NCBI RefSeq assembly: GCF_000328525.1
Contig: NC_019964.1
Location: 310,001 to 374,000, forward strand
Source of the DNA: Halovivax ruber XH-70
GTDB lineage: Archaea > Halobacteriota > Halobacteria > Halobacteriales > Natrialbaceae
Reading direction: 5' to 3'
DNA: 64,000 bases
The notes under the pieces were generated by a model, which was not told the origin of the DNA, searched no databases, and saw only the letters and a program-made list of their open reading frames with translations. The position numbers and the translations under genes were made by a program. Shown here piece after piece: positions 4,861 through 60,905 of this stretch (the first letter of the stretch is position 1; each line of letters begins with the position of its first letter).

Positions 4861-5970
4861 ATGAACGGAACCGCGCTCGTCTCTGTCGTTTTCGCGACCC
4901 TTCTCGTGGTCGGGATCGCCGTCCCGGCGGTGGCGCTCTCGACCGATGCTGGCGAGCCCTCGTCGAGTTCGCTGGACGGCACGACCGTCGCACCAGCCCA
5001 GTCCGCGCCGAACAGTTCGAGCGTGAACGTCACGACCGGGCCGCAGCTCTCGACGGTCATCGAGGTTTCTGCCGACGACGTACAGTCCGACGTCGAGGAC
5101 ACGGCCTTCGAGATCTCGTTCGAGGACGCGGACGAAGCGACGCGGGCCGACGCGCTCGCCGACCGGGCGGCGGCCCTCCGTGATCGGGCCGAGGCTATCG
5201 ACGAAGACTACGCGGACGCGACCGCCGCCTACGAGGACGGCGACCTCGGAAAGGCTGCGTACACTCAGCGGCTCGCGACCCTGAACGCCCGCGCGTCCAA
5301 CGTCCTCGACAGTCACAGGCAGTTCCGACAGCGGGTCGCGACGGTCTCTCCGTCCGCGCTCAGCGCCGCCGAGGTCGATCGGTCCGCGCTCAACCAGTCG
5401 ATCGAGGCCCTGAACACGGTCACCGGCACCGGCGCCACGGCGCTCCTGGCACAGTTCACCGCCGAGTCGACCGGTGAGATCGAACTCGAAACGGACAACG
5501 GACTCTCGATCGAGGTCGAGAGCGAGGACGGCGAGCGCTCTCGCGAGTTCGAGCGCCCGCGCGACGACAACGACGACCGAACGGTGGCCCAGTCAGCAGC
5601 CCTCGAAACGGCCCGCGACGCACTGTCGCCAGTCGAGGATGGGAACTGGACCCTCACCAGTTCGGAGATCGACGACGGCAGCGCCTACGAGTTCGAGTTC
5701 GAACTCCTGGACGCCGCCACCCTGACTGGTGACGCCGAAATCGCCGTCGACGGGTCGACTGGGGACGTGTTCTCCCTCGAGGAAGAGATCGAACCCCGTG
5801 ACGACGAAGCCGACGATGACGAGGACGCAGACGATGAAGACGACGACGCGGATGACGAGGACGAAAACGACGAGGACGAGAACGACGCAGAGGACGATGA
5901 GGACGACGCAGATGAGGAAGACGACGATGCGGACGATGACGGCGACGCGGACGACGAAGACGACGACTGA
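4861..5970 (+). CDS. Secreted DUF7096-like protein with Asp/Glu tail
   Basis: A 369-residue protein. MNGTALVSVVFATLLVVGIAVPAVA is the signal region. A mainly helical ectodomain follows (about 60-240) with DALADRAAALRDRAEAIDEDY and QSIEALNTVTGTGATALLAQF. Then comes a PepSY-like strand-rich piece (DGNWTLTSSEIDDGSAYEFEF, with GDVFSLEEEI). The last about 55 residues are nearly pure D/E/A/N. This matches what I know as the haloarchaeal DUF7096 family, but the family name is from memory. The start is set by the TATA element; the frame from 4789 to 4860 is upstream of the promoter. It probably sits at the cell surface. The tail and the shared divergent regulatory region tie it to 3979-4575. Confidence 0.8.
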   Translation: MNGTALVSVVFATLLVVGIAVPAVALSTDAGEPSSSSLDGTTVAPAQSAPNSSSVNVTTGPQLSTVIEVSADDVQSDVEDTAFEISFEDADEATRADALADRAAALRDRAEAIDEDYADATAAYEDGDLGKAAYTQRLATLNARASNVLDSHRQFRQRVATVSPSALSAAEVDRSALNQSIEALNTVTGTGATALLAQFTAESTGEIELETDNGLSIEVESEDGERSREFERPRDDNDDRTVAQSAALETARDALSPVEDGNWTLTSSEIDDGSAYEFEFELLDAATLTGDAEIAVDGSTGDVFSLEEEIEPRDDEADDDEDADDEDDDADDEDENDEDENDAEDDEDDADEEDDDADDDGDADDEDDD

Positions 5971-6094
5971 CGCAGCCGAGAAGGAGTGATTCTGAAGCGG
6001 CTGATGAGGCCGAACAGGCCACTCGATCGCTATGGGGTGCTGGTGGACGATTAATACGTGGTGACCCGTACGGAGCCCAGAGAGAGAATTCCGC

Positions 6095-6457
6095 ATGTCC
6101 GAGCCAGAAACCGTCGACGGCTACATCGCCGACGCGGACGAAGCCGCCCGCCCGACGCTCAGAGAACTCCGCGAGCTCGTCACTTCGACCGTGCCGGAAG
6201 CGGAGGAGGGAATCAGCTACAACGTCCCGTTCTACCGCTTCCACGGCACCCACGTCGGCATCACCGCGTTCACGAATCACGCGACCTTCGGGATCGGCGC
6301 GGACGCACTCGGGAGCGACGACCGCGACCGGCTCGAAGCGATGGGGTACGACACCGGCAAGGAGACCATCCAGATCGGGTACGAGCAGGACGTGCCGACC
6401 GCGGAGCTGACGGAGCTGCTGGCGGCGAAAGCCGAGGCGGCCAGAAACGCGGAGTGA
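6095..6457 (+). CDS. DUF1801 family protein (YdhG/iron-chaperone Fra-like fold)
   Basis: 120 residues: VDGYIADADEAARPTLREL, then VTSTVPEAEEGISYNVPFY, then HVGITAFTNHATFGIG, then GYDTGKETIQIGYEQDVP. The Y-I-x11-L-x2-LR start, the E-x-IsYn-P-fy core and the final GKxTIxi segment are the DUF1801 (PF08818) pattern; the length is typical. Bacterial relatives have been linked to iron handling (Fra/YdhG), but function in archaea is not established. Stands alone between the acidic-tail gene and the GNAT gene. Confidence 0.85.
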   Translation: MSEPETVDGYIADADEAARPTLRELRELVTSTVPEAEEGISYNVPFYRFHGTHVGITAFTNHATFGIGADALGSDDRDRLEAMGYDTGKETIQIGYEQDVPTAELTELLAAKAEAARNAE

Positions 6458-6706
6458 GCCGGACCGGCAGTCGGTGCCGTTGGGTCACTGTGCGCCGTGA
6501 CTCCCTCGGGATGGCGTCTCTGTGCGCATCGCGTCGCGACGCTCGCAGGCGGCGACGAACTGTGGAGCCGGTGTCGGAACTGATTTGCTGACCACAGCTG
6601 CTGGATTCAGCGGCGGGACATCGTTCGGCGGCCCACCCCCGATAACCACCCGCTCGGCCGGTGTGGTGGCTCACTACTGATTACGCTCGATTGCGAGTAG
6701 GGTGCT

Positions 6707-7995: not shown

Positions 7996-8225
7996 GGACT
8001 ACCAGCCGCTTGGCGCTGTTGAATTCCTCCGCAAGTGAGAGCTTTTGACTCAGGTGCGGTCAATACAGCGGAATGCGGTAACACATTGGCTGACTACCTA
8101 TCGCTTATTGGATACTTGCGGCGTGTGAGGTACAGAGGATGAGTTCAGCACGACGTCCCTATTTGTTTCATGCCGGAATCGGTGAACTATCCTCACACTA
8201 CACGTGCGTATTGAACGGTGGATGA

Positions 8226-8268
8226 TCTATCAGGACTGGGGGTATATTCAGACTATTGTGCTGAATAC
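8226..8268. repeat. Left copy of a bipartite inverted block
   Basis: Contains TCTATCAGG at 8226-8234 and GTGCTGAATAC at 8258-8268. The exact reverse complements of both words occur in reversed order at 9353-9394 with almost the same spacing (23 versus 22 bp). The two copies bracket the zinc-ribbon membrane gene. Confidence 0.5.
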
Positions 8269-8441
8269 ACGGCACGTTTTATTGTACAGCCCGTCACTCG
8301 CACTTTGAGGGGTAAGATCTATTTGTACGATTATGTAGGGCACTCCATTGTGAGGAACTATAATAAAATACCGTACTGTGAGTGAGCTTTAATGACGGCC
8401 CCTATGGGAATGGTAGATAACTGTTTGGCCAGTAGGTATTT

Positions 8442-8453
8442 CATCACGTGATG
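8442..8453. promoter_or_regulatory. Perfect 12-bp palindrome before the zinc-ribbon gene
   Basis: CATCACGTGATG, ending 14 bp before ATG 8468. The position overlaps a likely promoter or transcription start, so a repressor operator is plausible. Confidence 0.4.
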
Positions 8454-8467
8454 TATTTTCCATATTT

Positions 8468-9106
8468 ATGCCATACTGTCAGAATTGCGGGGCCGGGATT
8501 GAACCTGAGTCCCGCTTTTGCAGTGAATGTGGTACTGAATTGGATCCATCTCTGGATTCTAAAAGTCACCAGCCAGACCCAGCAGAAAAAGAACAATCCG
8601 AAATGGGACCACAGCGCCCCTCACAGGGGGAGCGACCACAAACGAGCGAAACCTCTCAGGTGGGATCAGAACCAACAGACCAGCTGTCCTGGAAGCATTT
8701 CTCCGAGATTTCACTTGGAAAGAAGTTGGCGCTTGTCGGTGGGGGTGTCACGATTGCCGGGGCATTCCTTCCATGGTTCTCTGTGGAGTTTCTGGGAACA
8801 TCAGTTAGTAGAGCTGGGATTGATGCCGACGGTATCTTCACGCTGATACTGGCTGCCATTGCGGTTGTCGTTGTTGGGCGCTCTCGTCTTGGAAGTTGGG
8901 GTCAAAAAACCTGGATTGGTGTCACTCTGATTGGTATATTTGTTGCATTCCTCGCGCTGGGATATATTAACGATCCATGGATGGGTGTCGACGAGAATCC
9001 ATCGGAAGAAGCTGAAACGTTAGTCAACATTGGTATAGGGTTGTATTTGACGGCTATTGGGGGGGTTATGTTGCTCGCGGGACCACTATACGATAAATAC
9101 GCTTAA
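8468..9106 (+). CDS. Zinc-ribbon protein with C-terminal membrane segments
   Basis: 212 residues. MPYCQNCGAGIEPESRFCSECG is a zinc ribbon (CxxC-x12-CxxC, residues 4-22). A polar linker rich in Q, S, E and P follows (about 25-75). Then come four hydrophobic segments: around 88-106, 116-133, 148-165 and 188-208. The ribbon-linker-membrane plan is common in archaea; such proteins may sense or organise the membrane, but the role is unknown. The gene is less GC-rich than its neighbours and uses AT-ending codons such as AAA, ATT and GAA freely, which suggests recent acquisition. A short T run directly follows the stop. Confidence 0.8.
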   Translation: MPYCQNCGAGIEPESRFCSECGTELDPSLDSKSHQPDPAEKEQSEMGPQRPSQGERPQTSETSQVGSEPTDQLSWKHFSEISLGKKLALVGGGVTIAGAFLPWFSVEFLGTSVSRAGIDADGIFTLILAAIAVVVVGRSRLGSWGQKTWIGVTLIGIFVAFLALGYINDPWMGVDENPSEEAETLVNIGIGLYLTAIGGVMLLAGPLYDKYA

Positions 9107-9565
9107 TTTTTGTTAGCTGTCAACACTACCGCCAGTCTCGGTGCTACAGACCACTTGCTGAAAAGGTATACCGATGACAGGACTGTCGTTCGAAAAATCC
9201 CCCCTACATGCTGTATGCAGCCTCTATATTCAGCAGGCAACTTTTAGCATGTTTCAGACAAATCAATAGCTACCTCGGTAACTGCTTGCCCTGTACTGAG
9301 CGTTCGATCCCCTGTGTTGATTACGCTCAGACTCGTGCGACATTCGCGCTCTGTATTCAGCACGGGCCGATAAACATCACTTGTTCCTGATAGAACTTTC
9401 AGCGGTAACTACGCACGTGTAGTGTACAGTGTATTCACGGGAACAGGTCTCTAAAGGAGAGAATTTCAACGGGACCAGCCGCTTCTATTCGGGCATGGAG
9501 ATCGCCGTCAGTGAACCCGATAAGGTGTGTTCGGGTCCGTATTGTCGGAACGAGGCTACCCACTT
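9107..9565. other. AT-rich non-coding region with TATTCAGCA motifs
   Basis: Holds CTATATTCAGCAGG near 9225 and GTATTCAGCAC at 9353-9363, plus the right inverted block. A frame at 9208-9390 has no protein-like sequence. Nothing else is recognisable. Confidence 0.4.
9353..9394. repeat. Right copy of the bipartite inverted block
   Basis: GTATTCAGCAC (9353-9363) and CCTGATAGA (9386-9394), inverted relative to 8226-8268. The 22-bp middle parts are not conserved. Could be ends of a small mobile element or paired protein-binding sites. Confidence 0.5.
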
Positions 9566-9838
9566 TCAATCTGTTATAGCGGGGTCACTCCGCGGATTCT
9601 CGAGCTGTAACTCGAGCTCCGTCAGCCGACACTCGTGGGCGAGCAGCATCGAAATCAGGTGCGTCGTCATCGGATCGGGGTGGTTCTGCATGCCGCCCGC
9701 ATCGGCAAAGTTTCGAACCTGGTGGATGAGTTGCTGGAACTGGTCCTGGTGTTGTGTTCGGAGTGCCCGATGATACGTCGACCACTCAGTTTCGAACGCG
9801 CGAACCGTGTCTCGGTAGGTGGGATTGGTCTTTCCCAT
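9566..9838 (-). CDS. Small haloarchaeal protein of unknown function (DUF8156-like)
   Basis: 90 residues: MGKTNPTYRDTVRAFETEW, then HRALRTQHQDQFQQLIHQV, then a helix with MLLAHECRLTELELQLE. This resembles a small family found repeatedly in haloarchaeal genomes and near mobile or accessory DNA; the family number is from memory. It is all-helical and polar, with no membrane segment and no cysteine pair. Start chosen at the MGKTNPTYRDT methionine that begins the conserved-looking part; the frame extends upstream to 9991 without protein character. Confidence 0.65.
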   Translation of the reverse strand: MGKTNPTYRDTVRAFETEWSTYHRALRTQHQDQFQQLIHQVRNFADAGGMQNHPDPMTTHLISMLLAHECRLTELELQLENPRSDPAITD

Positions 9839-10127
9839 ACGACCTGACACTGTCAGAAGTGGGATAAGTGACGGAGTACCGTTTCGGAAATTCCGATACT
9901 GGGTCGGAGATATCTTGGAAAGTAGGGAAGATAGCCCATCGAGTACAGAATGTGGGGCATCACGGCCGACTCGTTCGTATCGAACCGGCACTGTTGCAAC
10001 CTGCCTGGGTCGCTACCTGCTGGTGAGAGCCGGTCAGCCGCTCGTGTGTACTGGTCGATCTAGTTCCTTTAGGGGTGAACGATACTGGTAAATTTCTCCC
10101 GCTCTGGATTGTAGGATGGGTGGCGGA

Positions 10128-40158: not shown

Positions 40159-41325
40159 CTAGAGTTGTTCCCAGGCGTCTTCGTCGTCGGGATCGATGTC
40201 CGTCGGCGGACCGCCCGGACCGACGGGGCCGTCGGCCGGTGCCGATCCGGGGGCGGCTGGTGGCGCCCCGGCGGTGTCCTCGGCTCCGCCGGTGGTGTCC
40301 TCCAGATTCATGTTCGGCCAGGCGGTCTCCTCCCAGAGGCCGCGGTCGGTGTAGTAGTAGACGACGTCGTCCGAGACGACCGCGAACAGGCCGCGCTGGC
40401 GATCGTGGACCACCCGTTCGCTCGTGTCGATGGCGACGTCGACGACGTCCTCCAGCGTGTCCAGTGCGATGTGGTGGTCGCCGATCCACATGGGGATCGA
40501 GCCGCGGGAGATCCACTCGGCGTACCGGCGTTCGTGGACCGCCCGGCGAGCCGACTTCTCGTCGATCGGGCGGCGCCGGTCGAGTCCCCAGGCCGCGCCG
40601 AGTGAGAGCGTCCCGACGACAGCCAGTAGGCCGACGAGCGCCGTCGAGCGCGGCTCTGACTCGGTCACGAGCGCGTATTGCGGATGCGTCTCCTCGTGGG
40701 ATGGGACGGGCTGGGCGAGCCAGAACGCGCGTTCGGTCGCGACGAGTTCCGTCTCGATCGTGAACGCGTCGGCGGTCGTCCCCGTGTCGTACTCCGTCTC
40801 GACGACGGCGACGACGCGGACGTCGCCCACACCGGCGACCTCGCGCTCGATCTCGCCCATCCGGTCGCGGACGGCGGCGACGTCGACGTCGACCGAACTG
40901 CTGGCGACGCCGTCGCGTACTCTCGGTGCCTGTCTACTGAGCTGGCTCGTCTCGTTCCAGAAGACTGCGCCGTCGCGCACGGCCTCGTATCGGAGCGTGA
41001 CGTCGTGATAGACGCTCGCGTCGTTCGTCGGGACGGTCGTCCGTGGCGTGAGCGTCAGCGTCTCCGTCGCGTTCGTGAGGTAGACCGGTTCGTCTTCGAG
41101 GACCGTCCCTTCGGGCCAGAGCCCGCCGGTCTCGACGATCGCTTCGGTCCCGACCTCGGTCGAGACGCGGTCGGTGCCCGTCTGCTGGGTCGTCGTGGTC
41201 GTCTCCGGCGAGGCGACCGCCCAGCCGGATAGTGCGAGCGCGACGACGCCGCAGACGGCCAGCGCGACGAGTAACGTCCGGCCGTACCGAGCGACGAGCA
41301 GGTCGATTCGTGGATTGTCGATCAT
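40159..41325 (-). CDS. DUF5305 membrane protein of the signal peptidase/TasA-like locus
   Basis: 388 residues. One TM helix (about 17-37, LLVALAVCGVVALALSGWAV) leads to an exported domain of about 200 residues: YLTNATETLTLTPRTTVPTN, VTLRYEAVRDGAVFWNETSQ. A second TM (about 240-258) leads to a cytoplasmic part with SRGSIPMWIGDHHIALDTLE and an acidic, Pro/Gly-rich tail. This is the DUF5305 pattern, repeatedly found next to archaeal signal peptidases and DUF1102 proteins. It may assist export or assembly of the surface proteins encoded upstream. Starts at 41325 or 41334 are both possible. Confidence 0.82.
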   Translation of the reverse strand: MIDNPRIDLLVARYGRTLLVALAVCGVVALALSGWAVASPETTTTTQQTGTDRVSTEVGTEAIVETGGLWPEGTVLEDEPVYLTNATETLTLTPRTTVPTNDASVYHDVTLRYEAVRDGAVFWNETSQLSRQAPRVRDGVASSSVDVDVAAVRDRMGEIEREVAGVGDVRVVAVVETEYDTGTTADAFTIETELVATERAFWLAQPVPSHEETHPQYALVTESEPRSTALVGLLAVVGTLSLGAAWGLDRRRPIDEKSARRAVHERRYAEWISRGSIPMWIGDHHIALDTLEDVVDVAIDTSERVVHDRQRGLFAVVSDDVVYYYTDRGLWEETAWPNMNLEDTTGGAEDTAGAPPAAPGSAPADGPVGPGGPPTDIDPDDEDAWEQL

Positions 41326-41448
41326 TGTTCCCATCCCGTCGGGCCTCGCTTCGAGCGAGCCCACGTGCCGGTTCCCAGCCAGCACACCCCCGACTTGTCG
41401 AGACGTACGAACGACTGACTGATAACCGTACTGGCCCCGTCCGAACGC

Positions 41449-42630
41449 TCAACGGCGCCACTTTCGAAGCTTCCGGCTCACTCTGCGTCGGACCGGGACG
41501 TGCGAGCCGGGCGTTCGAAACTTGATGTCGTCCCGGCCGAACAGGGCGAGGATCAGGACGACGGCGGCGCCCACGACCACTGCGTCGACGGCCGCGACGG
41601 CCAGATATGGGTGGATGCCGTGGAGCCAGCCCAACAGGGTCGGCGGGAGTACGAGCAGATACCGATACTCGCGGACCGTCTGGACGTACGTCCCGGTTCG
41701 GTCGGGGGCCGACAGCGTGACGGTCACCTCGCCCTCGTCCCGCGCCCCGACGACCTGCCGGGCCGGGTCGATGGCGACGCCGTCGCTCGCTGGTTCGGTC
41801 TGGGCGACGATCGGGACGTACCCCGCGTTGTCGATCGTGCGGGTGAGGTCGCTGGTTTCGCCCGGTGCGATCCGCTGTGGATCGTCGGTCGGCTCGTCGG
41901 TGCTGACCACGTCGTACCCCGTCGTGCCGGACGGAACGACCATCGTCGCGGTCGCTGCCGTCACCAGGACGAGCAAGACGAGCGCGATCACCGACCAGAG
42001 GGCGATCACGTTCCGCCGGGTGGTCGTCCGCGTCGTCTCCCGCCGCGGTGGGCCAGCCCGATCGAACACGACGCCGAACCCGAACATGGCGACCCCGAGG
42101 CCGACCAGCATCGCCCCCGCACCGTCGGCGTCGAGGCCGCCCGGGCCGTTCCCCAGGCCGAGCGCGCCGGCGATCGCGCCGACGACGCCGAGCACCAGCG
42201 ACTGGATCCCCATCACGACCGTCCCGAGGTGGGGAATCGTGACGACGGTCCCCTCGATCTGGAGCGCTTTCGCGACGATCTGGCCGTCGGTCACCGGCGG
42301 CTCACCGCCGTCCTGATCGGTAAACGGGTTGGCGTCCCCCTTCGTCACGTAGCCGTCGTCCGTCTCTTCGACGACGCGGTGGGTCGTCAGGCCGCCGCCG
42401 TTGACCTCACGCGCTTCGTAGACGATCACGTCGCCCTCGGAGACGTCGCCGGCGAGGGCATCTGGCACGGCGACGAACCCGTCGCCGGTCTCCATCGCGG
42501 GTTCCATACTTCCCGAGGCGACGTACCCCAGTAACATCGGCTGGCCGAGCACCTGGCCGAGGACGAGCGCCGCTACGACGATGGCGAACGCCACGCCGAG
42601 TACCCGCGATGCCGTTTCGATATCAACCAC
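41449..42630 (-). CDS. Signal peptidase I, archaeal Sec11-type, with C-terminal exported domain
   Basis: 393 residues from GTG 42630. Residues about 9-30 are a TM helix. The catalytic Ser41 lies in YVASGSMEPAM, and the Ser/His type is shown by H84 in GLTTHRVVEE and D99 (or D105) in KGDANPFTDQD. This is the eukaryote/archaeal-like and SipW-like class, not the Ser/Lys class. After two membrane segments (about 125-185), an exported beta-rich part follows (GETSDLTRTIDNAGYVPIVA), then another TM and a basic tail. The extra domain makes it much longer than a housekeeping enzyme, in line with dedication to the neighbouring TasA-like substrates. GTG is chosen because the frame before it is not protein-like. 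Confidence 0.82.
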   Translation of the reverse strand: MVDIETASRVLGVAFAIVVAALVLGQVLGQPMLLGYVASGSMEPAMETGDGFVAVPDALAGDVSEGDVIVYEAREVNGGGLTTHRVVEETDDGYVTKGDANPFTDQDGGEPPVTDGQIVAKALQIEGTVVTIPHLGTVVMGIQSLVLGVVGAIAGALGLGNGPGGLDADGAGAMLVGLGVAMFGFGVVFDRAGPPRRETTRTTTRRNVIALWSVIALVLLVLVTAATATMVVPSGTTGYDVVSTDEPTDDPQRIAPGETSDLTRTIDNAGYVPIVAQTEPASDGVAIDPARQVVGARDEGEVTVTLSAPDRTGTYVQTVREYRYLLVLPPTLLGWLHGIHPYLAVAAVDAVVVGAAVVLILALFGRDDIKFRTPGSHVPVRRRVSRKLRKWRR

Positions 42631-42691
42631 AATTTTCCTCGTTCTCTCCGCGCTAACCCACGCTACGATGCTGGCCTCGGCCGGCACCGAC

Positions 42692-43588
42692 TTAACGCCG
42701 CCGACCTCGCACGACGCGGCCGATCGCCACGAGCCCAAGCGTCGCCGGCGGGGCGATCGCCGCCGTCAGCGGCGATGCGAACTCGACCGACGAGAGTGAG
42801 ATGCTCGTGCGGTCGGAGACGGCGACGGTCCCCGCCGCCGTCTCCCCCACGCTGAGTCGGTAGACGCCCGCCGATTCGGGCGTCCAGCCGACGGTCAGTG
42901 TACGGGTTTCGTTCGGTGCGAGTTCGACACGGCGATCGTCGACGACGGCCCCGTCGACCAGGATCGGGATCCGATCGGCAATTCGCCGGTCGTCGAGGTT
43001 CGACACGGTGGCGGTTACCGTGACCGTGTCGCCGGCCGTTACGTTCGTCGCGTCGACAGACGCGTTCGTGACGGCCAGCTCTCCGGTCAAATCCACATCC
43101 TCGCCGGCCGCGGTTTCGTTCCCGTCGGCGGGCCTATCGTCATCCTCGTCCGCCGTCTCGACGACGATGGAGAACGTCTCCGACCCGGTCGGCGCCTCGT
43201 GCGTGTCGATGGAGACGCCGATGGTAACCGATTCGCCCCCGGACAGGGACACAGGATCGGCGGCGTCGATGGCGGTTTTCCGGTCGCCGTCGGCGTAGAA
43301 CGTGACTTCCCGTACGTCGTGTTCGACCCAGACGCTGCTGTCGTCGGCCGTCGTCACGTCGAAGACGGCGTCGACGTCGGTCCGCGCGTCGACGTTGAGT
43401 CGATCGAAGTCGAGCGTGAGTTCCCCGTCTTCGACGGTCGCGTACTGACTCGCTGCAGTGAGTACGACACCCTCGGTCGCGTCGCTCTCGGCGGTGGTGT
43501 CACTGGCGCCGAGACCTACCGCCGCCGTCGGGACGGCGAGCAGGAGCGACCCGAGTGCGAGTACCGTCAGCCACGTCGTGCGTGTCAT
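42692..43588 (-). CDS. Exported DUF1102-like protein with CARDB-type domain and C-terminal anchor
   Basis: 298 residues. Signal segment TWLTVLALGSLLLAVPTAAV. A DUF1102-like beta region follows (ASQYATVEDGELTLDFDRLN, VDAVFDVTTADDSSVWVEHD). An acidic linker leads to a CARDB/Ig-like domain (ASVDATNVTAGDTVTVTATV, ETRTLTVGWTPESAGVYRLS), then a hydrophobic end and RRVRGRRR-like basic tail that would hold it in the membrane. It could be a fibre anchor or minor subunit. It lies between the TasA-like gene and the signal peptidase; 61 bp to the latter. Confidence 0.75.
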   Translation of the reverse strand: MTRTTWLTVLALGSLLLAVPTAAVGLGASDTTAESDATEGVVLTAASQYATVEDGELTLDFDRLNVDARTDVDAVFDVTTADDSSVWVEHDVREVTFYADGDRKTAIDAADPVSLSGGESVTIGVSIDTHEAPTGSETFSIVVETADEDDDRPADGNETAAGEDVDLTGELAVTNASVDATNVTAGDTVTVTATVSNLDDRRIADRIPILVDGAVVDDRRVELAPNETRTLTVGWTPESAGVYRLSVGETAAGTVAVSDRTSISLSSVEFASPLTAAIAPPATLGLVAIGRVVRGRRR

Positions 43589-43785
43589 CGATTCTGGCCC
43601 TATCATCTTCCAGCCGGGCGACCCTCGTTCGGGACCGGGTCGATCCGACAGCGCCGCGGTGGCGACGCCGCTGGGCAGGTTCCTGTCCCCACTGGTTGAC
43701 GCGTTTCCGCCCACGAGTAGACGAGGTCTCGTCGGCCGTCGAATCCGTCCGTCGATGCTCGAATCCTGCCCCGGTCAGATCAGTC

Positions 43786-44241
43786 TCACGTCGTTGCGGT
43801 GATCGTGATCGTCGTGTTGAGGGTGGCGTTTGCAGCAGCCCCGCTCGTATCGATCTCGAGATCGACCGGAGTGGTGCCACCTGCCGCCAGCGTGTTGTTC
43901 TGAGCTGTCAACGTCACGTCGATATTGTTGCTCTGGGTCGTCCAGGGGCCGTCGAGCGTGATCTCCGCGGAGTGATTGTTGATGATGTTGAAGGCGCCAG
44001 TCGCCGTCAGCGTGCCGTCGATGTTGGCGTCGGTGAGCGAGATCTCGAGCTTGTCGTTGGTGATGCTCGCGTAGTCGCTCGTCGCTTCGAACGCCACTCG
44101 TGCACTCGCGTCGCCGCTCGTCTCCACGGTCACGGTACGATCTGCGGTCACGGTGCTGAACGCACCCGTGCCGAGCAGTGCGCCGCCGCTTGCTACGATG
44201 CCACCCAGTCCGACCAGAACGTTGCGTCGATTCATTCTCAT
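43786..44241 (-). CDS. TasA-like (DUF1102) fibre subunit candidate
   Basis: 151 residues: MRMNRRNVLVGLGGIVASGG is the signal (twin Arg then hydrophobic), ending in GAFSTVTADRTVTVET at 26-41. The mature part is all-beta (VAFEATSDYASITNDKLEIS, GAFNIINNHSAEITLDGPWT, NATLNTTITITATT). Archaeal DUF1102 proteins are relatives of TasA and of the AbpA subunit of archaeal bundling pili, which assemble by donor-strand exchange after cleavage by a dedicated signal peptidase. The motif FST..ADR..TVET is shared with the protein at 45025-46056. It may be the main subunit. A start at 44235 is possible. Confidence 0.8.
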   Translation of the reverse strand: MRMNRRNVLVGLGGIVASGGALLGTGAFSTVTADRTVTVETSGDASARVAFEATSDYASITNDKLEISLTDANIDGTLTATGAFNIINNHSAEITLDGPWTTQSNNIDVTLTAQNNTLAAGGTTPVDLEIDTSGAAANATLNTTITITATT

Positions 44242-44486
44242 GGTATGTCCCCCACGCCCTGCGGGCCGAACCCGACGCGGCGCGGTTCTTACTCATGCCC
44301 AGTCACCACTACCCCTTTGTATTGAGCAGCCGGAACGGTCGCACGGTTGGCCAGAAGGTCGTTCAAGCCGGTCTTGAACGGATATTTCGGCCGTTGAGAC
44401 GGTCGTCGGCCCAAACACATTAGTAGCGATCGGTCCTAGATGTGTCACACCTTCGGGGGAGGGTGCGCGGACTGGTGAGCGACAGC
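44242..44486. promoter_or_regulatory. Divergent promoter region of the TasA-like locus
   Basis: About 245 bp between the leftward TasA-like gene and the rightward wHTH gene. It contains the 21-bp inverted repeat at 44360-44380, an AT-rich GATATTTCGG directly after it, a CAATACAAAGG-like element for the leftward direction near 44318-44328, and CATTAGTAG near 44417. The exact start sites are not clear. Confidence 0.45.
44360..44380. promoter_or_regulatory. Perfect inverted repeat, candidate operator
   Basis: CGTTCAAG, five-base spacer CCGGT, CTTGAACG: eight-base arms with no mismatch. It lies in the middle of the divergent promoter region and directly before an AT-rich GATATTTC. A natural binding site for a dimeric regulator such as the adjacent wHTH protein. 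Confidence 0.6.
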
Positions 44487-45014
44487 ATGGGAGCGTCACA
44501 CGGAAGCCACGGCGAAATCTTCGAGCTGCTTAGCAATCGCCGTCGGCGATACGCGATCCACTACTGCAAGCGGGTCGACGAGCCGGTCGAACTCGGCGAT
44601 CTCGCCGAGCAGGTTGCCGCGTGGGAACTCGACAAGGAGGTTCAGGAACTCACGTCCGCCGAGCGAAAGCGTGTCTACACCGCGCTCCAGCAGACGCACC
44701 TGCCCACCCTCGAGCGAGCGGACGTGGTGGAGTTCGAGAATCACACGATCGAACTGACCGACGAGGCCGACGCGCTCGAAATCTACCTGGACATCGTCCC
44801 CGCGGACTCGATCCCCTGGGGCGTCTACTACCTCGGCCTGTCCGTCCTCGGCTTCGTCGTCCTCGCGGGCGTCTGGGCCGACGTCGTCCCGACGGAGACG
44901 ATACCGCCGCTTGGCTGGGCCGGACTGGTGCTCGGCGCCGTGACCGTCTCGGCTATCGCGCACGTGCTGACGAGTCGGCGCTACCGCCTCGGGGAGATGG
45001 AACGGCCGCCGTAG
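44487..45014 (+). CDS. Winged-helix (DUF7344-like) regulator with two TM segments
   Basis: 175 residues. GEIFELLSNRRRRYAIHYCK through LERADVVEFENHTIELTDEA forms a DUF7344-type winged helix (about 8-100). Two TM helices follow (about 112-133 and 142-162), so the regulator is held at the membrane. It is followed after 10 bp by the second TasA-like gene and is divergent from the first, a classic position for a local regulator. In-frame GTGs at 44463 and 44475 are alternative starts. Confidence 0.78.
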   Translation: MGASHGSHGEIFELLSNRRRRYAIHYCKRVDEPVELGDLAEQVAAWELDKEVQELTSAERKRVYTALQQTHLPTLERADVVEFENHTIELTDEADALEIYLDIVPADSIPWGVYYLGLSVLGFVVLAGVWADVVPTETIPPLGWAGLVLGAVTVSAIAHVLTSRRYRLGEMERPP

Positions 45015-45024
45015 GGGAAATACC

Positions 45025-46056
45025 ATGATGGGGGGTTCACTGACGAAACTGGGGGCGGTGCTAGTGGTCGCGGGAGCCTTGCTCATGGCCGGCCCCGTCT
45101 TCGGATTCAGTACCCTTGCGGCGGACCGGGGAACGACCGTCGAGACCGCTCCCACGGAATCTGCGCTCCTCGGCATCCAGCCGACTGGCGAGACGCCGGA
45201 CAACCAGAACGACGCCCCGGTTCTCACGGTCACGAACAACGCCAACGAACGGTTCGACACCCTCGACACGCAGGCCGAGATCGTCTCGGACCCGAACGGC
45301 GCGCTCGCGATCAGTGACGGGTTCGGCTCCTCGCTCGATCCGGATGCTCAGACTGACCTCTCCCTGACGTGTGCCAGCGGCGGTACCGGCCAGGCGACCG
45401 TCGAGGTGACGGCCAACGCCGTCGGGTCGACGCTCGCCGTCGAGGACATCACGTACACGCACACGTTCTCCTACAGCTGCACTGGCAACGGCGGGGGTGG
45501 CCCGCCCGGATTCGTCTCGGTGTCCGCTGGCGACGTCACCGGCTCGAATACGCAGGAACTGACGTTCGCGCTCGATGGCAAGCTGAACAACGGCGAAACC
45601 GTCACGATCGATATCACGAGCTTCCTGGCAAACTACGACGGTGCCAGTATCGACTCGCTCACGGTCGGCGGCTCGCCGGCTCGAAAACACGACCGGACGT
45701 TTGAACCGGCCAGTGGCTCAGCTACGATCACCGTCACGGCGAAGGGGAACATCAAGGCCGGCAAAGAGGTCCGGATCGTCCTCGATGGGGTCTCGCCGGA
45801 GTTTGACTTCTTCAGCTGGGCGACGTTTAGCACGGCCAGTTCGCAGGCGAGCGACACCTTCGCCATCGACTCCGGTGGTGGATGGATGACAACTGCGTCG
45901 ACAGCTGGCGACACCGGTTCGGTCGACGGAACGATCTCCCGCGAGGAACTCGAATCGATCCCGCTCGCGGAACTCGAGCGATTCGACAGCTACGACGACC
46001 TCGAACGGTACATCGAGGCTGAGACGGACATCGAGGTCGTCGACAGCGGCGGCTGA
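45025..46056 (+). CDS. Second TasA-like exported protein with C-terminal extension
   Basis: 343 residues. MMGGSLTKLGAVLVVAGALL, a signal segment, ends in FGFSTLAADRGTTVET (27-41), almost the same motif as in the divergent TasA-like protein. A beta-rich part follows (APVLTVTNNANERFDTLDTQ, YTHTFSYSCTG), then a Gly/Pro linker, a second beta domain (TGSNTQELTFALDGKLNNGE) with ITVTAKGNIKAGKEVRIVLD, and an acidic helical end (SREELESIPLAELERFDSYD). Two cysteines in the first domain (C112/C153 area) could pair outside the cell. It could be a minor or tip subunit. ATGs at 45025 and 45028 follow GGGGAAA. Confidence 0.75.
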   Translation: MMGGSLTKLGAVLVVAGALLMAGPVFGFSTLAADRGTTVETAPTESALLGIQPTGETPDNQNDAPVLTVTNNANERFDTLDTQAEIVSDPNGALAISDGFGSSLDPDAQTDLSLTCASGGTGQATVEVTANAVGSTLAVEDITYTHTFSYSCTGNGGGGPPGFVSVSAGDVTGSNTQELTFALDGKLNNGETVTIDITSFLANYDGASIDSLTVGGSPARKHDRTFEPASGSATITVTAKGNIKAGKEVRIVLDGVSPEFDFFSWATFSTASSQASDTFAIDSGGGWMTTASTAGDTGSVDGTISREELESIPLAELERFDSYDDLERYIEAETDIEVVDSGG

Positions 46057-57165: not shown

Positions 57166-57885
57166 TTATGGATCATCCAGCGGTGTAACCAGTATCTGTG
57201 AGGCCAGACTCTGTGGGACACTCGTCTGTTCACCGGTGTCCCCGATAGCAAGAACCACCATCCCAATTGGCGTGGTTTCGACGAGGCGAATACGTTCTGT
57301 CGGTTCCAGCCCAACCGAAACGAGATGCTCCAGAACCTCGTCATCCTGCGTCAATATCCGCGTAACTTCTACACTTACAGACTTATCAACGTCGACTAGC
57401 GAGGTGACGTCCGCTGATTGAGGGAGGTCAAGGTTACTGTCGGGGATAGGATCGCCGTGCGGGTCGGTTTCTGGCATGTCGAGCTTCCGTTCGATTTTCC
57501 GACAGAGCCGATTACTGAGGTGATGCTCCAAGATATCGGCCTCGGCGTCGACTTCACTGATCGCGTAATCGAACAACTCCGTAAGCATCGTCTCGGCAAG
57601 TCGGTGTTTGCGGACCACTCGTAGTGCGATTTTCTTGCCTTCGGTCGTGAGACGAATGGGGCGATACCGTTCTCGGTCGATTAACCCCTGCTTCGAGAGC
57701 GTACTGAGCATACTCGTTACTGATGCTCGGGTAACACCGAGTTGCTCTGCAATCTCTGAGTTGGACACCCGGCCGTCGGCTTCCTGTTCGAGACGGTAGA
57801 TGTGCCGGAGATAGTCTTCCATCTTCGGCGTGATCGCTGGCAACGACTCGGGCGTGTTTGGGGTGTCTGAATCTGATAAACTCAT
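57166..57885 (-). CDS. DtxR-family metal-dependent regulator
   Basis: 239 residues. The N-terminal winged helix is MEDYLRHIYRLEQEADGRVS with VTRASVTSMLSTLSKQGLID. The dimerisation and metal-binding helices contain RVVRKHRLAETMLTELFDYA, DAEADILEHHLSNRLCRKIE and MPETDPHGDPIPD, carrying the usual C/E/H metal ligands (H, E, H, H and Cys in LCRK). A FeoA-like SH3 domain ends the protein (about 165-239). It should repress metal uptake when Fe or Mn is bound. Encoded 65 bp downstream of the ABC permease, in the same direction. Its own promoter region contains GTCTAGTCTGA. Confidence 0.92.
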   Translation of the reverse strand: MSLSDSDTPNTPESLPAITPKMEDYLRHIYRLEQEADGRVSNSEIAEQLGVTRASVTSMLSTLSKQGLIDRERYRPIRLTTEGKKIALRVVRKHRLAETMLTELFDYAISEVDAEADILEHHLSNRLCRKIERKLDMPETDPHGDPIPDSNLDLPQSADVTSLVDVDKSVSVEVTRILTQDDEVLEHLVSVGLEPTERIRLVETTPIGMVVLAIGDTGEQTSVPQSLASQILVTPLDDP

Positions 57886-57950
57886 TTTGTCTAGTCTGAT
57901 TGAATGCTTATCTCACGGGTTACCGCACAGGCTCGTTGTGGAAGGGGTCA

Positions 57951-58961
57951 TCAGTCGTCACTCGGTTTGGCTTCGCCCATGTCGATGCTTCCCATCTCGG
58001 GGCTGTCCTCCTCACCGAGGGCCGTCTGGAGTTTTCCGAGCACCACAGCGACGACGTAGATCGCGACTGCGAGGAGAACGATCACGCCTCCGGCAGTCGC
58101 CTCGGCATAGTACGAGACACCGATGCCGAGGATGACGGCTAACTCGGCGAGTACGACCGACACGAGTATCGATTCGTTGAAGCTCCGAGAGATCTGTGAT
58201 GCGCCAGCGACGGGCACGACGAGCATCGCAGCTACGAGGATGACCCCCATAATCTGCATTGCGCCGACCACGACCATCGCTGTCAGCAACACCATGATGC
58301 GATTGTACCAACTGACCGAGAGCCCAGACACTGCTGCTGCCGTCTCGTCGAAGGTGACGTACAGCAATTGATTGTGCGTGAGCGCAACCACGCCGATGAT
58401 AATGCCGAATAGTAGTAGGAGTATCGCAGCACTATCCTGCGAGACTGTGGCGAGGTTCCCGAAGAGGTACTGGTTTACCCCAACGGAAAGCCCACCGGCG
58501 TTGATGCTGATCAGTGTCGTCCCCAACGCGAAGCCCGTCGAGAGCACGATAGCCATCGAAACGTCGTTGTAGGCATCTGTCGCCTCCGATATCAGCTCGA
58601 TGAACAGCGCAGCGATCATCGAAACCACGACTGCCGTCAGGTACGGCGAGACCCCGAGTTCGAAGACGGCGTTGACGAATAATCCCACGGCGACGCCCGC
58701 AAACCCGGTGTGGGCGAGCGCGTCACCGATCAGTGCCAACTGCCGATGAACGAGGAAGGTCCCGATCAAGGGTGCCATCACCCCGATACAGAGTCCGACG
58801 AGGATCGCCCGGTGCATGAAGCTGTACTGGAGAAGTTCTAGTCCAGTCATCCCAGCCACCCAGGACATGAAGCCCGACCAGAGTTGCAGGAACCAGTACA
58901 GTGGTTCGAACACGGGGCTCAAGGGTCCCGCTTGCAGTAGTAGGGTGGGTTGGTACGTCAT
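57951..58961 (-). CDS. Zn/Mn ABC transporter permease (ZnuB/TroC type)
   Basis: 336 residues, about 9 TM helices, PF00950. The hallmark segments are visible: FLVHRQLALIGDALAHTGFA and NDVSMAIVLSTGFALGTTLI, and LLYVTFDETAAAVSGLSVSW, the cytoplasmic coupling helix. The start overlaps the ATPase stop by 4 bp (ATGA). It carries the metal released by the binding protein into the cell. The last about 30 residues are acidic (EEDSPEMGSIDMGEAKPSDD), an unusual tail. Confidence 0.93.
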   Translation of the reverse strand: MTYQPTLLLQAGPLSPVFEPLYWFLQLWSGFMSWVAGMTGLELLQYSFMHRAILVGLCIGVMAPLIGTFLVHRQLALIGDALAHTGFAGVAVGLFVNAVFELGVSPYLTAVVVSMIAALFIELISEATDAYNDVSMAIVLSTGFALGTTLISINAGGLSVGVNQYLFGNLATVSQDSAAILLLLFGIIIGVVALTHNQLLYVTFDETAAAVSGLSVSWYNRIMVLLTAMVVVGAMQIMGVILVAAMLVVPVAGASQISRSFNESILVSVVLAELAVILGIGVSYYAEATAGGVIVLLAVAIYVVAVVLGKLQTALGEEDSPEMGSIDMGEAKPSDD

Positions 58962-59836
58962 CGAGAACCACCTAACAGGTTCGCTGTGGTGCCAAAGGCG
59001 CGAGCCAGGGCGTCACTCTCGACGAACTCGCTGGCCGACCCGTCGAAGTATATCTCCCGGTTGAGACAGATGACGCGTTCGGCGTGTTCGGTGACTGCGC
59101 CCAGGTCGTGCTCGATGAGTAGAACCGTGATACCGTCCCGGTTCAGTGCATCTAGGAGGTCGTAGAACGCCTCGACCGATTCAATGTCGACACCAACGGT
59201 CGGTTCGTCGAGGACGAGCAGGTCGGCCTCGCTGGCGAGCGCACGGGCGATGAACGCCCGCTGGCGCTGGCCGCCAGACAACTGTGTCACACGACGATTG
59301 GCGAAGGCCGTCATGCCGACGGTGTCGAGCGCCCGGTCGACGATGTCCCAGTCCTCGCTGGAGAGGCGACCGAAGACGGCGTCAAGGGCTCCTCTGGAGG
59401 TGCAGAGCGGGTCCTCGCGTACTGCGTCGATGACCGTCTGGTCGTCGTCGATCAGTCGGTCGAAGCCGACGTGTGGAAACCGACCCATCTTTACGACTTC
59501 TCGGACGGTGATCGGCATCTCTTTCGAGGCGCTGGCGTGCTGGGCGACGTAGCCGATCCGCTCGCCATCGTCGAACTGACGCGAGGGTTCGCCGAATAGT
59601 CTGGCGTCTCCCTCGTCCGGTCGAAGCAACCCCAACATCAACTTCATCAGCGTCGATTTCCCCGACCCGTTCGGACCGACGACCGCAACGTACTCGCCAG
59701 GGTCGATCCGAAGCGAGATATCCTCGACGACCGGGGTAGACGTGTATCCGAAGTCGATCCCGGATAGTTCGATGACCGACTCAGTGCTGCTTGCCGTCCC
59801 CGAACTCGTGGTACTCGCAGGGGTTTGTGTGCTCAT
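58958..59836 (-). CDS. Zn/Mn ABC transporter ATPase (ZnuC/TroB type)
   Basis: 292 residues. Walker A GPNGSGKST (55-63), Q-loop VAQHASASKEMPITVREVVK typical of the metal (Zn/Mn) subclass, signature LSGGQRQRAFIARAL, Walker B LLVLDEPTVGVD, and H-loop LIEHDLGAV. The N-terminal 20 residues are Ser/Thr-rich and unconserved. It is 7 bp downstream of the binding-protein gene and overlaps the permease by 4 bp, so the three genes are one operon. Confidence 0.94.
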   Translation of the reverse strand: MSTQTPASTTSSGTASSTESVIELSGIDFGYTSTPVVEDISLRIDPGEYVAVVGPNGSGKSTLMKLMLGLLRPDEGDARLFGEPSRQFDDGERIGYVAQHASASKEMPITVREVVKMGRFPHVGFDRLIDDDQTVIDAVREDPLCTSRGALDAVFGRLSSEDWDIVDRALDTVGMTAFANRRVTQLSGGQRQRAFIARALASEADLLVLDEPTVGVDIESVEAFYDLLDALNRDGITVLLIEHDLGAVTEHAERVICLNREIYFDGSASEFVESDALARAFGTTANLLGGSR

Positions 59837-59843
59837 TGGAAGT

Positions 59844-60905
59844 TCACTCGAAGCTCATCCACTCGTCGGCCCAGCCATCGGGCCCGACTTCTTCGGGCTG
59901 TTTGTTGCCGAGCACGACCTCGAACGTGGGCATATTGATGTTGTAAGCGATTTCCTCGTACCCCCAGTTGTTCTCAACCCAGTCCTCCCGAACGCCAGCG
60001 TACGGCGTCACGGGATAGTATGCCTCGACCGCCGTCTCGGCGACGAGTTGTTGTGCAGGCCTGCGCGTCTCGAACACCGCGGCACCGATGTACTTGATAT
60101 CGTTCTCGTCGATGACGCGCTTGGCTTCCGTGATGTCGGAAGGCTTGACATTGCCGCTGGCAGCGAGGTTCACGACGAGTGGGCGCATTTGGATGTCGTA
60201 CTTGACGCCGATGTACTGGAACGCGTTGTGAGCGGCGAGTTGGACGACATCGCGTTCGGCGGCGTCGAAGATTGCCTGGTAATCCTGATCGATCTGTTCG
60301 AGGACGTCGGTCTTGTAGGTCGAGGCGTTCTCCCGGAACGTCGATTCGTGGTCCGGTGCGAGTTCGACGAGCCCATCGGTAATGTTGTCGACGGACTGCT
60401 TCGCGCGGTCGGGATCGAGCCAGAAGTGGGGGTCCTTCCCTCGACCCTCGCCGACACCTTCTTCATCGGGGTCGAGGCTGGCGGCGAGGTCGACCAGTCC
60501 GATTCCCTCCCGGACGTTGATGAGTTGGGTGTCGACGTTGTCGTCTTTGAGCGTCTGGATTGCCCGGTCGGCCCAGGGCTGGAAGTCTGAGCCGACGTGG
60601 ATGAACGCATCGGCTTCGATGATATCCCTGGTGATACTCGCGTCCGGTTCCCAGCCGTGGCCGTGGAGCCCGGTTGGAATCAGGTTTCGCACTTCGACAG
60701 GAGTTCCGTTTGCGACCTTTCGGGCGAAGTCATAGAAGCTGAAGAACGAAGCGACGGCGACGGGGCCCTCTACACTCGCGTCTTTGTTGCTACTGAAACC
60801 ACCTATACACCCGGCGAGGCCGGTGGCGAAAAGTCCTGTACCCGCAGTAATGGCCCTTCTGCGTGAGAAACTGTACGTCGTCTTCGACTGTGTCGTGTCG
60901 TCCAT
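59844..60905 (-). CDS. Zn/Mn-binding lipoprotein (ZnuA/TroA type)
   Basis: 353 residues. Tat-like FSRRRAITAG with lipobox C33 (GLAGC). The binding site ligands fit cluster A-I: H81/H83 in GLHGHGWEP, H160 in KDPHFWLDP, H226 in AAHNAFQYIG and an acidic ligand further on. The His-rich loop of zinc-specific ZnuA is replaced by a short acidic loop (DPDEEGVGEGRGKD), so Mn or Fe is as possible as Zn. First gene of the operon, leaderless from a TATA element at 60931-60938. The DtxR gene at the end points to metal control. Confidence 0.92.
   Translation of the reverse strand: MDDTTQSKTTYSFSRRRAITAGTGLFATGLAGCIGGFSSNKDASVEGPVAVASFFSFYDFARKVANGTPVEVRNLIPTGLHGHGWEPDASITRDIIEADAFIHVGSDFQPWADRAIQTLKDDNVDTQLINVREGIGLVDLAASLDPDEEGVGEGRGKDPHFWLDPDRAKQSVDNITDGLVELAPDHESTFRENASTYKTDVLEQIDQDYQAIFDAAERDVVQLAAHNAFQYIGVKYDIQMRPLVVNLAASGNVKPSDITEAKRVIDENDIKYIGAAVFETRRPAQQLVAETAVEAYYPVTPYAGVREDWVENNWGYEEIAYNINMPTFEVVLGNKQPEEVGPDGWADEWMSFE

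Follow-up and report, generated by a model that had tools for sequence, protein, structure and literature searches.

For the haloarchaeal Tafi pilus, the filament formed by its pilin has been solved as PDB 9P0A, and the gene cluster described here is very probably the orthologous locus in Halovivax. It lies in a window of 64,000 nucleotides from the genome of Halovivax ruber XH-70, which is a single contig of 3,223,876 bases. A first-pass annotation of this window had proposed a fibre locus of TasA type with its own signal peptidase, membrane anchor and membrane regulator. All six genes claimed there were found at their coordinates (Table 1), the observed locus is real and most of the earlier interpretation holds: what stands is a fibre locus that encodes a peptidase, an anchor and a membrane regulator of its own, as its pilin matches 9P0A, and the TasA-type identity falls. 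The pilus system itself is already known. The knowledge of Tafi used here was taken from the PDB title ('Structure of Natrinema sp. J7-2 Tafi pilus', released 2025-07-23) and from the NCBIfam names; a literature search found no paper describing the Tafi locus, and some of the points given here may already be known.

Table 1. Features of the putative Tafi pilus locus, in positions of the window
Feature	Position	Strand	Evidence
DUF5305 membrane protein	40159..41334	-	PF17231, 3.8e-54
Extended archaeal/Sec11-type signal peptidase	41449..42657	-	TIGR02228, 66.2 bits, over cutoff
Membrane anchor, 298 aa	42692..43588	-	DUF1102, 2.6e-5; CARDB, 7.4e-9
Major Tafi-type pilin, 151 aa	43786..44241	-	Match to PDB 9p0a; NCBIfam TafE below cutoff
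Pilin codons 28-41, FSTVTADRTVTVET, predicted mature N-terminus and donor strand	44119..44160	-	
Membrane-bound winged-helix regulator	44442..45014	+	DUF7344, PF24035, 9.4e-29
TafC-type minor subunit, 343 aa	45025..46056	+	NCBIfam TafC, 4.8e-9, below cutoff
TafC-type codons 28-41, FSTLAADRGTTVET	45106..45147	+	Translation; aligned with the pilin donor strand

The locus is made of two divergent gene sets, the pilin, anchor, peptidase and DUF5305 genes on one strand and the regulator and TafC-type genes on the other. The same order of pilin, anchor, peptidase and DUF5305 was observed in a locus of Natrinema gari (L091), which also carries a divergent regulator and a TafC-type gene on the opposite strand, and ABCE1 and EMC6 adjoin both loci. 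Among the 80 loci fetched, ABCE1 was recognised in 22 and EMC6 in 26, all of them in the family of the window locus. The pilin of the N. gari locus (5896-6534) is identical to the 9p0a sequence over 213 residues. Since the gene set, its order and these neighbours are common to a locus that encodes the solved pilin, the window locus is taken as its orthologue in Halovivax. The peptidase tree places the window within a Natrialbaceae clade together with the N. gari locus (support 100/99), and the window peptidase is 97% identical to its Halovivax asiaticus counterpart.

The pilin has a beta-rich core behind an N-terminal donor strand. An alignment of 47 pilin homologues (A2), close relatives of 9P0A among them, gave a profile that matched PDB 9p0a with E=8.7e-43, and the window pilin as a single sequence matched it with 8.7e-16. 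The AF2 model of the pilin was searched by Foldseek, which returned 9p0a at probability 0.99 with TM scores of only 0.49/0.40 and gave no match below E 0.001; the modest TM is possibly due to the monomer model complementing itself. Self-complemented FimA variants were also returned (probability up to 1.0), along with AbpA (7ueg, 0.51) and the Sulfolobus thread (7pnb, 0.47). The NCBIfam models were matched below their cutoffs in every case, with 62 bits against 155 for TafE and 53 against 190 for TafA in the pilin, and 36 against 410 for TafC in the protein at 45025. As the 9P0A pilin itself also falls below the TafA and TafE cutoffs, these names describe a different branch. The first-pass annotation had called the two small exported proteins TasA-like members of DUF1102. 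They are exported and motif-bearing as claimed, but the family assignment fails, because neither gave a Pfam DUF1102 or TasA match; the gathering cutoff of DUF1102 (PF06510, 22.2) was passed only by the anchor (24.9).

The motif F28 S29 T30 .. A33 D34 R35 .. T38 V39 E40 T41 is present in both proteins, as had been noticed earlier. A motif of this shape was found in 76 of 83 related pilins and in 40 of 56 TafC-type proteins, against 4.6 and 2.7 expected after shuffling. The 9p0a sequence has 215 residues, with the M of MNRR at position 3, of which the structure-library chain contains 188. Provided that all residues absent from it are N-terminal, the 9P0A model starts at F28, directly after GTGA, and since the motif begins at this same residue it probably marks the cleavage site together with the N-terminal donor strand. 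The earlier suggestion of a processing site and donor-strand start is thus probable from the modelled length of 9P0A, the cleavage itself being a prediction. The signal of the window pilin is of twin-arginine type (MNRRNVLVGL..GTGA), with the cut predicted before F28. Pairwise identity among the 47 aligned pilins is 72% at residues 1-34 and 26% beyond. RR (or RK) stands in the same position in all 47, a set picked partly by its twin-arginine start, and a twin-basic start was also found in all 53 proteins scoring best against the pilin profile. Such a signal fits Tat export, as far as it can be read from sequence.

The TafC-type protein carries a Sec-like signal, the donor-strand segment common with the pilin and a divergent body. 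In hhalign, only mature residues 1-26 align with the pilin (97%), and the pilin core against the TafC-type body gives 2%. At profile level, one common fold for the two motif-bearing proteins is therefore not supported, and by sequence they are not copies of one fold, the match being confined to these ~26 residues. Iterated HMMs had aligned the two proteins over longer stretches, probably via the conserved N-terminus. The TafC-type protein is a candidate cap or initiator.

The anchor is built of a Sec-like signal (..VPTAA), a pilin core that lacks the donor strand, a CARDB Ig domain and a C-terminal hydrophobic tail. Its first domain aligns with the pilin core from after the donor strand (hhalign, 98%). 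Both the pilin-like domain (41-145) and the CARDB domain are modelled with confidence by AF2; residues 18-37, which correspond to the first strand of the pilin, are disordered (pLDDT below 50). The motif occurred at the shuffled level in anchors of two clades (1/35 and 0/25). A C-terminal hydrophobic segment was found in 57 of 60 anchors, 1 of 83 pilins and none of 56 TafC-type proteins, and a C-terminal TM in 35 of 35 anchor orthologues. When the whole anchor was searched by Foldseek, the CARDB Ig domain dominated and no pilin appeared among the 50 top matches listed. The description of this gene as a DUF1102/CARDB protein with a membrane end was confirmed by both domain matches and the tail.

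The peptidase scored 66.2 bits against the TIGR02228 cutoff of 51.85, and its catalytic Ser48, His91 and Asp106 (numbering of the alignment row that begins at 42651) are invariant in the peptidase alignment (A1), lying in the motifs GSM.P, LTTHR and GDANPFTDQ. With the cutoff passed and the triad kept, it is the extended Sec11-type enzyme that had been claimed. The extension consists of two extra C-terminal TM segments enclosing a CARDB-like ectodomain, which matches the CARDB domain of the anchor (96.6%, hhalign). The DUF5305 protein, for which the PF17231 match and the TM segments bear out the first description, has an N-terminal TM, an ectodomain of ~190 residues, a second TM and a cytoplasmic tail. 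The regulator combines a DUF7344 winged helix with two C-terminal TM helices (TM 123-179), which agrees with a membrane-bound wHTH protein; its gene is divergent from the pilin operon and recurs in most syntenic loci.

In most of the 80 peptidase-anchored loci, the peptidase is surrounded by the regulator, by exported subunits and by DUF5305. As these loci were picked by the peptidase, the pilin, the extended peptidase and DUF5305 were also searched separately in 59 haloarchaeal genomes drawn evenly. All three families were found in 45 genomes and none in 11; of the other three genomes, one has a pilin but no peptidase, and two show DUF5305 only by weak or partial matches. The first-pass annotation had named a wide occurrence of the exported proteins without a signal peptidase as evidence against it, and this was not the pattern found, as 45 of the 46 genomes with a pilin have the extended peptidase. 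Where both are present in these 59 genomes, pilin and extended peptidase are mostly clustered: 103 of the 150 pilin matches listed have an extended peptidase no more than 15 kb away (1.7% expected by chance), and the other copies sit elsewhere, nearly all in peptidase-bearing genomes. DUF5305 was found within 2 kb of 60 of the 70 extended peptidases and, seen from the other side, 60 of 70 DUF5305 genes have an extended peptidase within that distance. In a larger sample of 194 genomes, DUF5305 was present in 157 and TafE-like proteins in 145. Outside haloarchaea, DUF5305 occurs mainly in another family of the same phylum with small genomes. In the four loci fetched from there, DUF5305 is directly behind an extended signal peptidase, near exported proteins, and in three of the four some exported proteins score above the cutoffs of TasA/camelysin PF12389 and SipW-cognate TIGR04088. 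The peptidases of these loci carry additional C-terminal segments, but the last hydrophobic ones stand so close together that, judged by length, a CARDB domain would have little room, and the CARDB-like domain seems to have been added in haloarchaea.

DUF5305 is encoded exactly twice in the Halovivax genome, in each case beside one of its three signal peptidases. The second such locus (L006) lies at ~583.5-589.4 kb of the genome, about 232 kb from the window locus, with TafC-type and regulator genes on one strand and two pilin-like genes, a peptidase and DUF5305 on the other; no CARDB anchor was recognisable in it. Its peptidase, a long branch whose placement calls for caution, falls in a different clade with Haloferacaceae and Halobacteriaceae sequences (100/98). 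Because the two peptidases are in separate supported clades, the two loci look like old paralogues.

The following working of the system is proposed. The invariant twin-arginine signal suggests that the pilin would be exported via Tat, probably in folded form. The dedicated peptidase would then cut GTGA|FST and free the N-terminal strand, as the shared site, the modelled length of 9P0A and the strict co-occurrence suggest. Homology to Tafi, and to donor-strand fibres in general, suggests that the freed strand would complete the groove of the neighbouring subunit. The anchor, having the core and no strand, should only accept and so tie the fibre base to the membrane. The TafC-type protein, with its strand on a body without detectable similarity to the pilin, may only donate, and it would cap or start the fibre as TapA does for TasA. 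In the simplest reading of these sequences, the anchor would only accept, the pilin would both donate and accept, and the TafC-type protein would only donate. DUF5305 and the CARDB-like ectodomain of the peptidase may form a platform for export and assembly, as suggested by their near-constant adjacency, and the membrane winged-helix protein, from its position, may control the divergent operons. We also propose, tentatively, that the CARDB-bearing peptidase and DUF5305 work as one machine, which would couple cleavage of the Tat-delivered folded pilin to hand-over of its strand onto the strand-less anchor.

These roles could also be reversed within the same pilus, with the anchor as the tip or a post-assembly terminator and the TafC-type protein as the base. 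In chaperone-usher pili the strand-less subunit is located at the tip, so this arrangement has a precedent, but the hydrophobic tail that is nearly confined to the anchors fits a membrane base and makes the reversal rather unlikely. It is highly improbable that the exported proteins are secreted or surface-attached adhesins that share a signal peptide and a peptidase and do not polymerise. Such a reading would suit the strong divergence of the subunit bodies (26% mean identity) in an organism known here from its genes alone; against it, a pilus has been solved for a close syntenic orthologue, the donor-strand segment has stayed conserved and the subunits divide their roles in a complementary way.

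That the locus makes a biofilm matrix fibre of the TasA/camelysin family, with a SipW orthologue as its processing enzyme, is very unlikely too, although such a fibre would follow the same logic of exported subunits with a dedicated peptidase. The mature N-terminus would be at residue 28 in both systems (PMC9674648), and in the second archaeal family DUF5305 and the extended peptidase do stand beside proteins passing PF12389/TIGR04088. The exported proteins of the window, however, gave no match to PF12389 or TIGR04088 even at E<=1, on which ground their membership of TasA was rejected, and these models are outscored by 9P0A. The window peptidase reached 42.7 bits against the cutoff of 190 of the SipW equivalog NF046067, and TasA was absent among the 50 Foldseek matches listed for the pilin model.

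Read as a Tafi pilus locus, the present data tie a solved haloarchaeal pilus to a gene set conserved across the class, with an ectodomain-bearing peptidase, DUF5305, a strand-less anchor, a donor-strand minor subunit and a membrane regulator. Donor-strand pilus assembly without a chaperone becomes testable gene by gene, and comparison across species points to a likely initiator, a likely extending subunit and a likely anchor of the fibre. For DUF5305, a family whose function is unknown, there is now a concrete hypothesis; if the one-machine proposal is true, the peptidase and DUF5305 would be a peptidase-driven assembly platform replacing chaperone and usher. The peptidase-DUF5305 pair also occurs beside true TasA/camelysin proteins in another archaeal family, which suggests a single peptidase-dependent assembly route with Tafi and TasA fibres as its branches.

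Among known systems, the Tafi pilus of 9P0A shares with the window a homologous pilin, the signal and the motif, as well as the gene order and chromosomal neighbours of N. gari. With 151 aa against 215, the window pilin is the shorter one; identity is ~40%, highest in the signal region, and the window anchor has one CARDB stretch where that of N. gari has two. The NCBIfam fimbrial families TafA, TafC and TafE detect relatives with scores far under their equivalog cutoffs. TasA-SipW-TapA of Bacillus subtilis is similar in its dedicated peptidase, in a donor-strand N-terminus from residue 28, which is the mature N-terminus of TasA (PMC9674648), and in a helper with a donor strand like that of the fibre protein, as the N-terminal residues of TapA resemble the TasA donor strand (PMC9674648). 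The window system differs from it by the Tat-type signal, the CARDB-bearing peptidase, the membrane anchor and the DUF5305 partner. AbpA (7ueg) and the Sulfolobus thread Saci_0406 (7pnb) also form donor-strand head-to-tail fibres; they are weak fold matches to the window pilin, to which no sequence similarity was found. The thread has in Saci_0405 a donor-only candidate cap (PMC9715654), and it is described as using Sec and ordinary signal peptidase I, unlike the window system.

A second, paralogous locus of the Tafi type was found in the same Halovivax genome (L006, about 583.5-589.4 kb of the contig containing the window), where a pair of pilin-like genes is present and no CARDB anchor could be recognised. 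In the Natrinema gari locus encoding the 9P0A pilin (L091), a large exported protein of 902 aa matching DUF7289, which is absent from the window, has its gene flanked by the TafC-type/regulator pair on one side and the pilin gene on the other. Several haloarchaeal genomes (e.g. G042, G038 and G008) have arrays of orphan pilin genes, and as these arrays stand far from any extended signal peptidase, they suggest that a single peptidase serves several alternative pilins.

In about 25 related loci, mainly of Haloferacaceae, a rhomboid-like intramembrane protease gene is placed between the anchor and signal peptidase genes. The protein carries H..GN and GFSG motifs, its L116 copy matches PF01694 at 2.3e-4 (slightly below the cutoff), and it could cleave the membrane tail of the anchor and so release the pilus.

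Elsewhere in the window, one stretch, possibly acquired DNA, has a GC content down to 0.50, compared with about 0.63-0.65 in its surroundings; another lower-GC stretch holds a zinc/manganese-type ABC uptake operon of ZnuA (1.8e-46), ATPase and permease, accompanied by a metal regulator of the DtxR type that includes a FeoA domain.

Coordinates of the features described
Sequence	Position	Feature
L006	4482-10381	Second Tafi-type locus
L091	2740-5448	DUF7289 protein
L143	6881-7780	Rhomboid-like protease (example)
L115	6775-7680	Same (example)
L116	6919-7815	Same (example)
L129	6733-7692	Same (example)
Window	8001-10000	GC dip
Window	8468-9106	Zinc-ribbon membrane protein, inside dip
Window	9566-9991	Small ORF, inside dip
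Window	57166-60905	ABC uptake operon
L158	4869-8564	DUF5305 and extended signal peptidase, non-haloarchaeal
L159	5515-7758	Same
L160	4633-8325	Same
L161	6753-11812	Same

Outside haloarchaea, exported proteins adjoin the pair of DUF5305 and extended signal peptidase, some loci having two signal peptidases, and several of these proteins (L158, L160, L161) pass the TasA/camelysin and SipW-cognate cutoffs.
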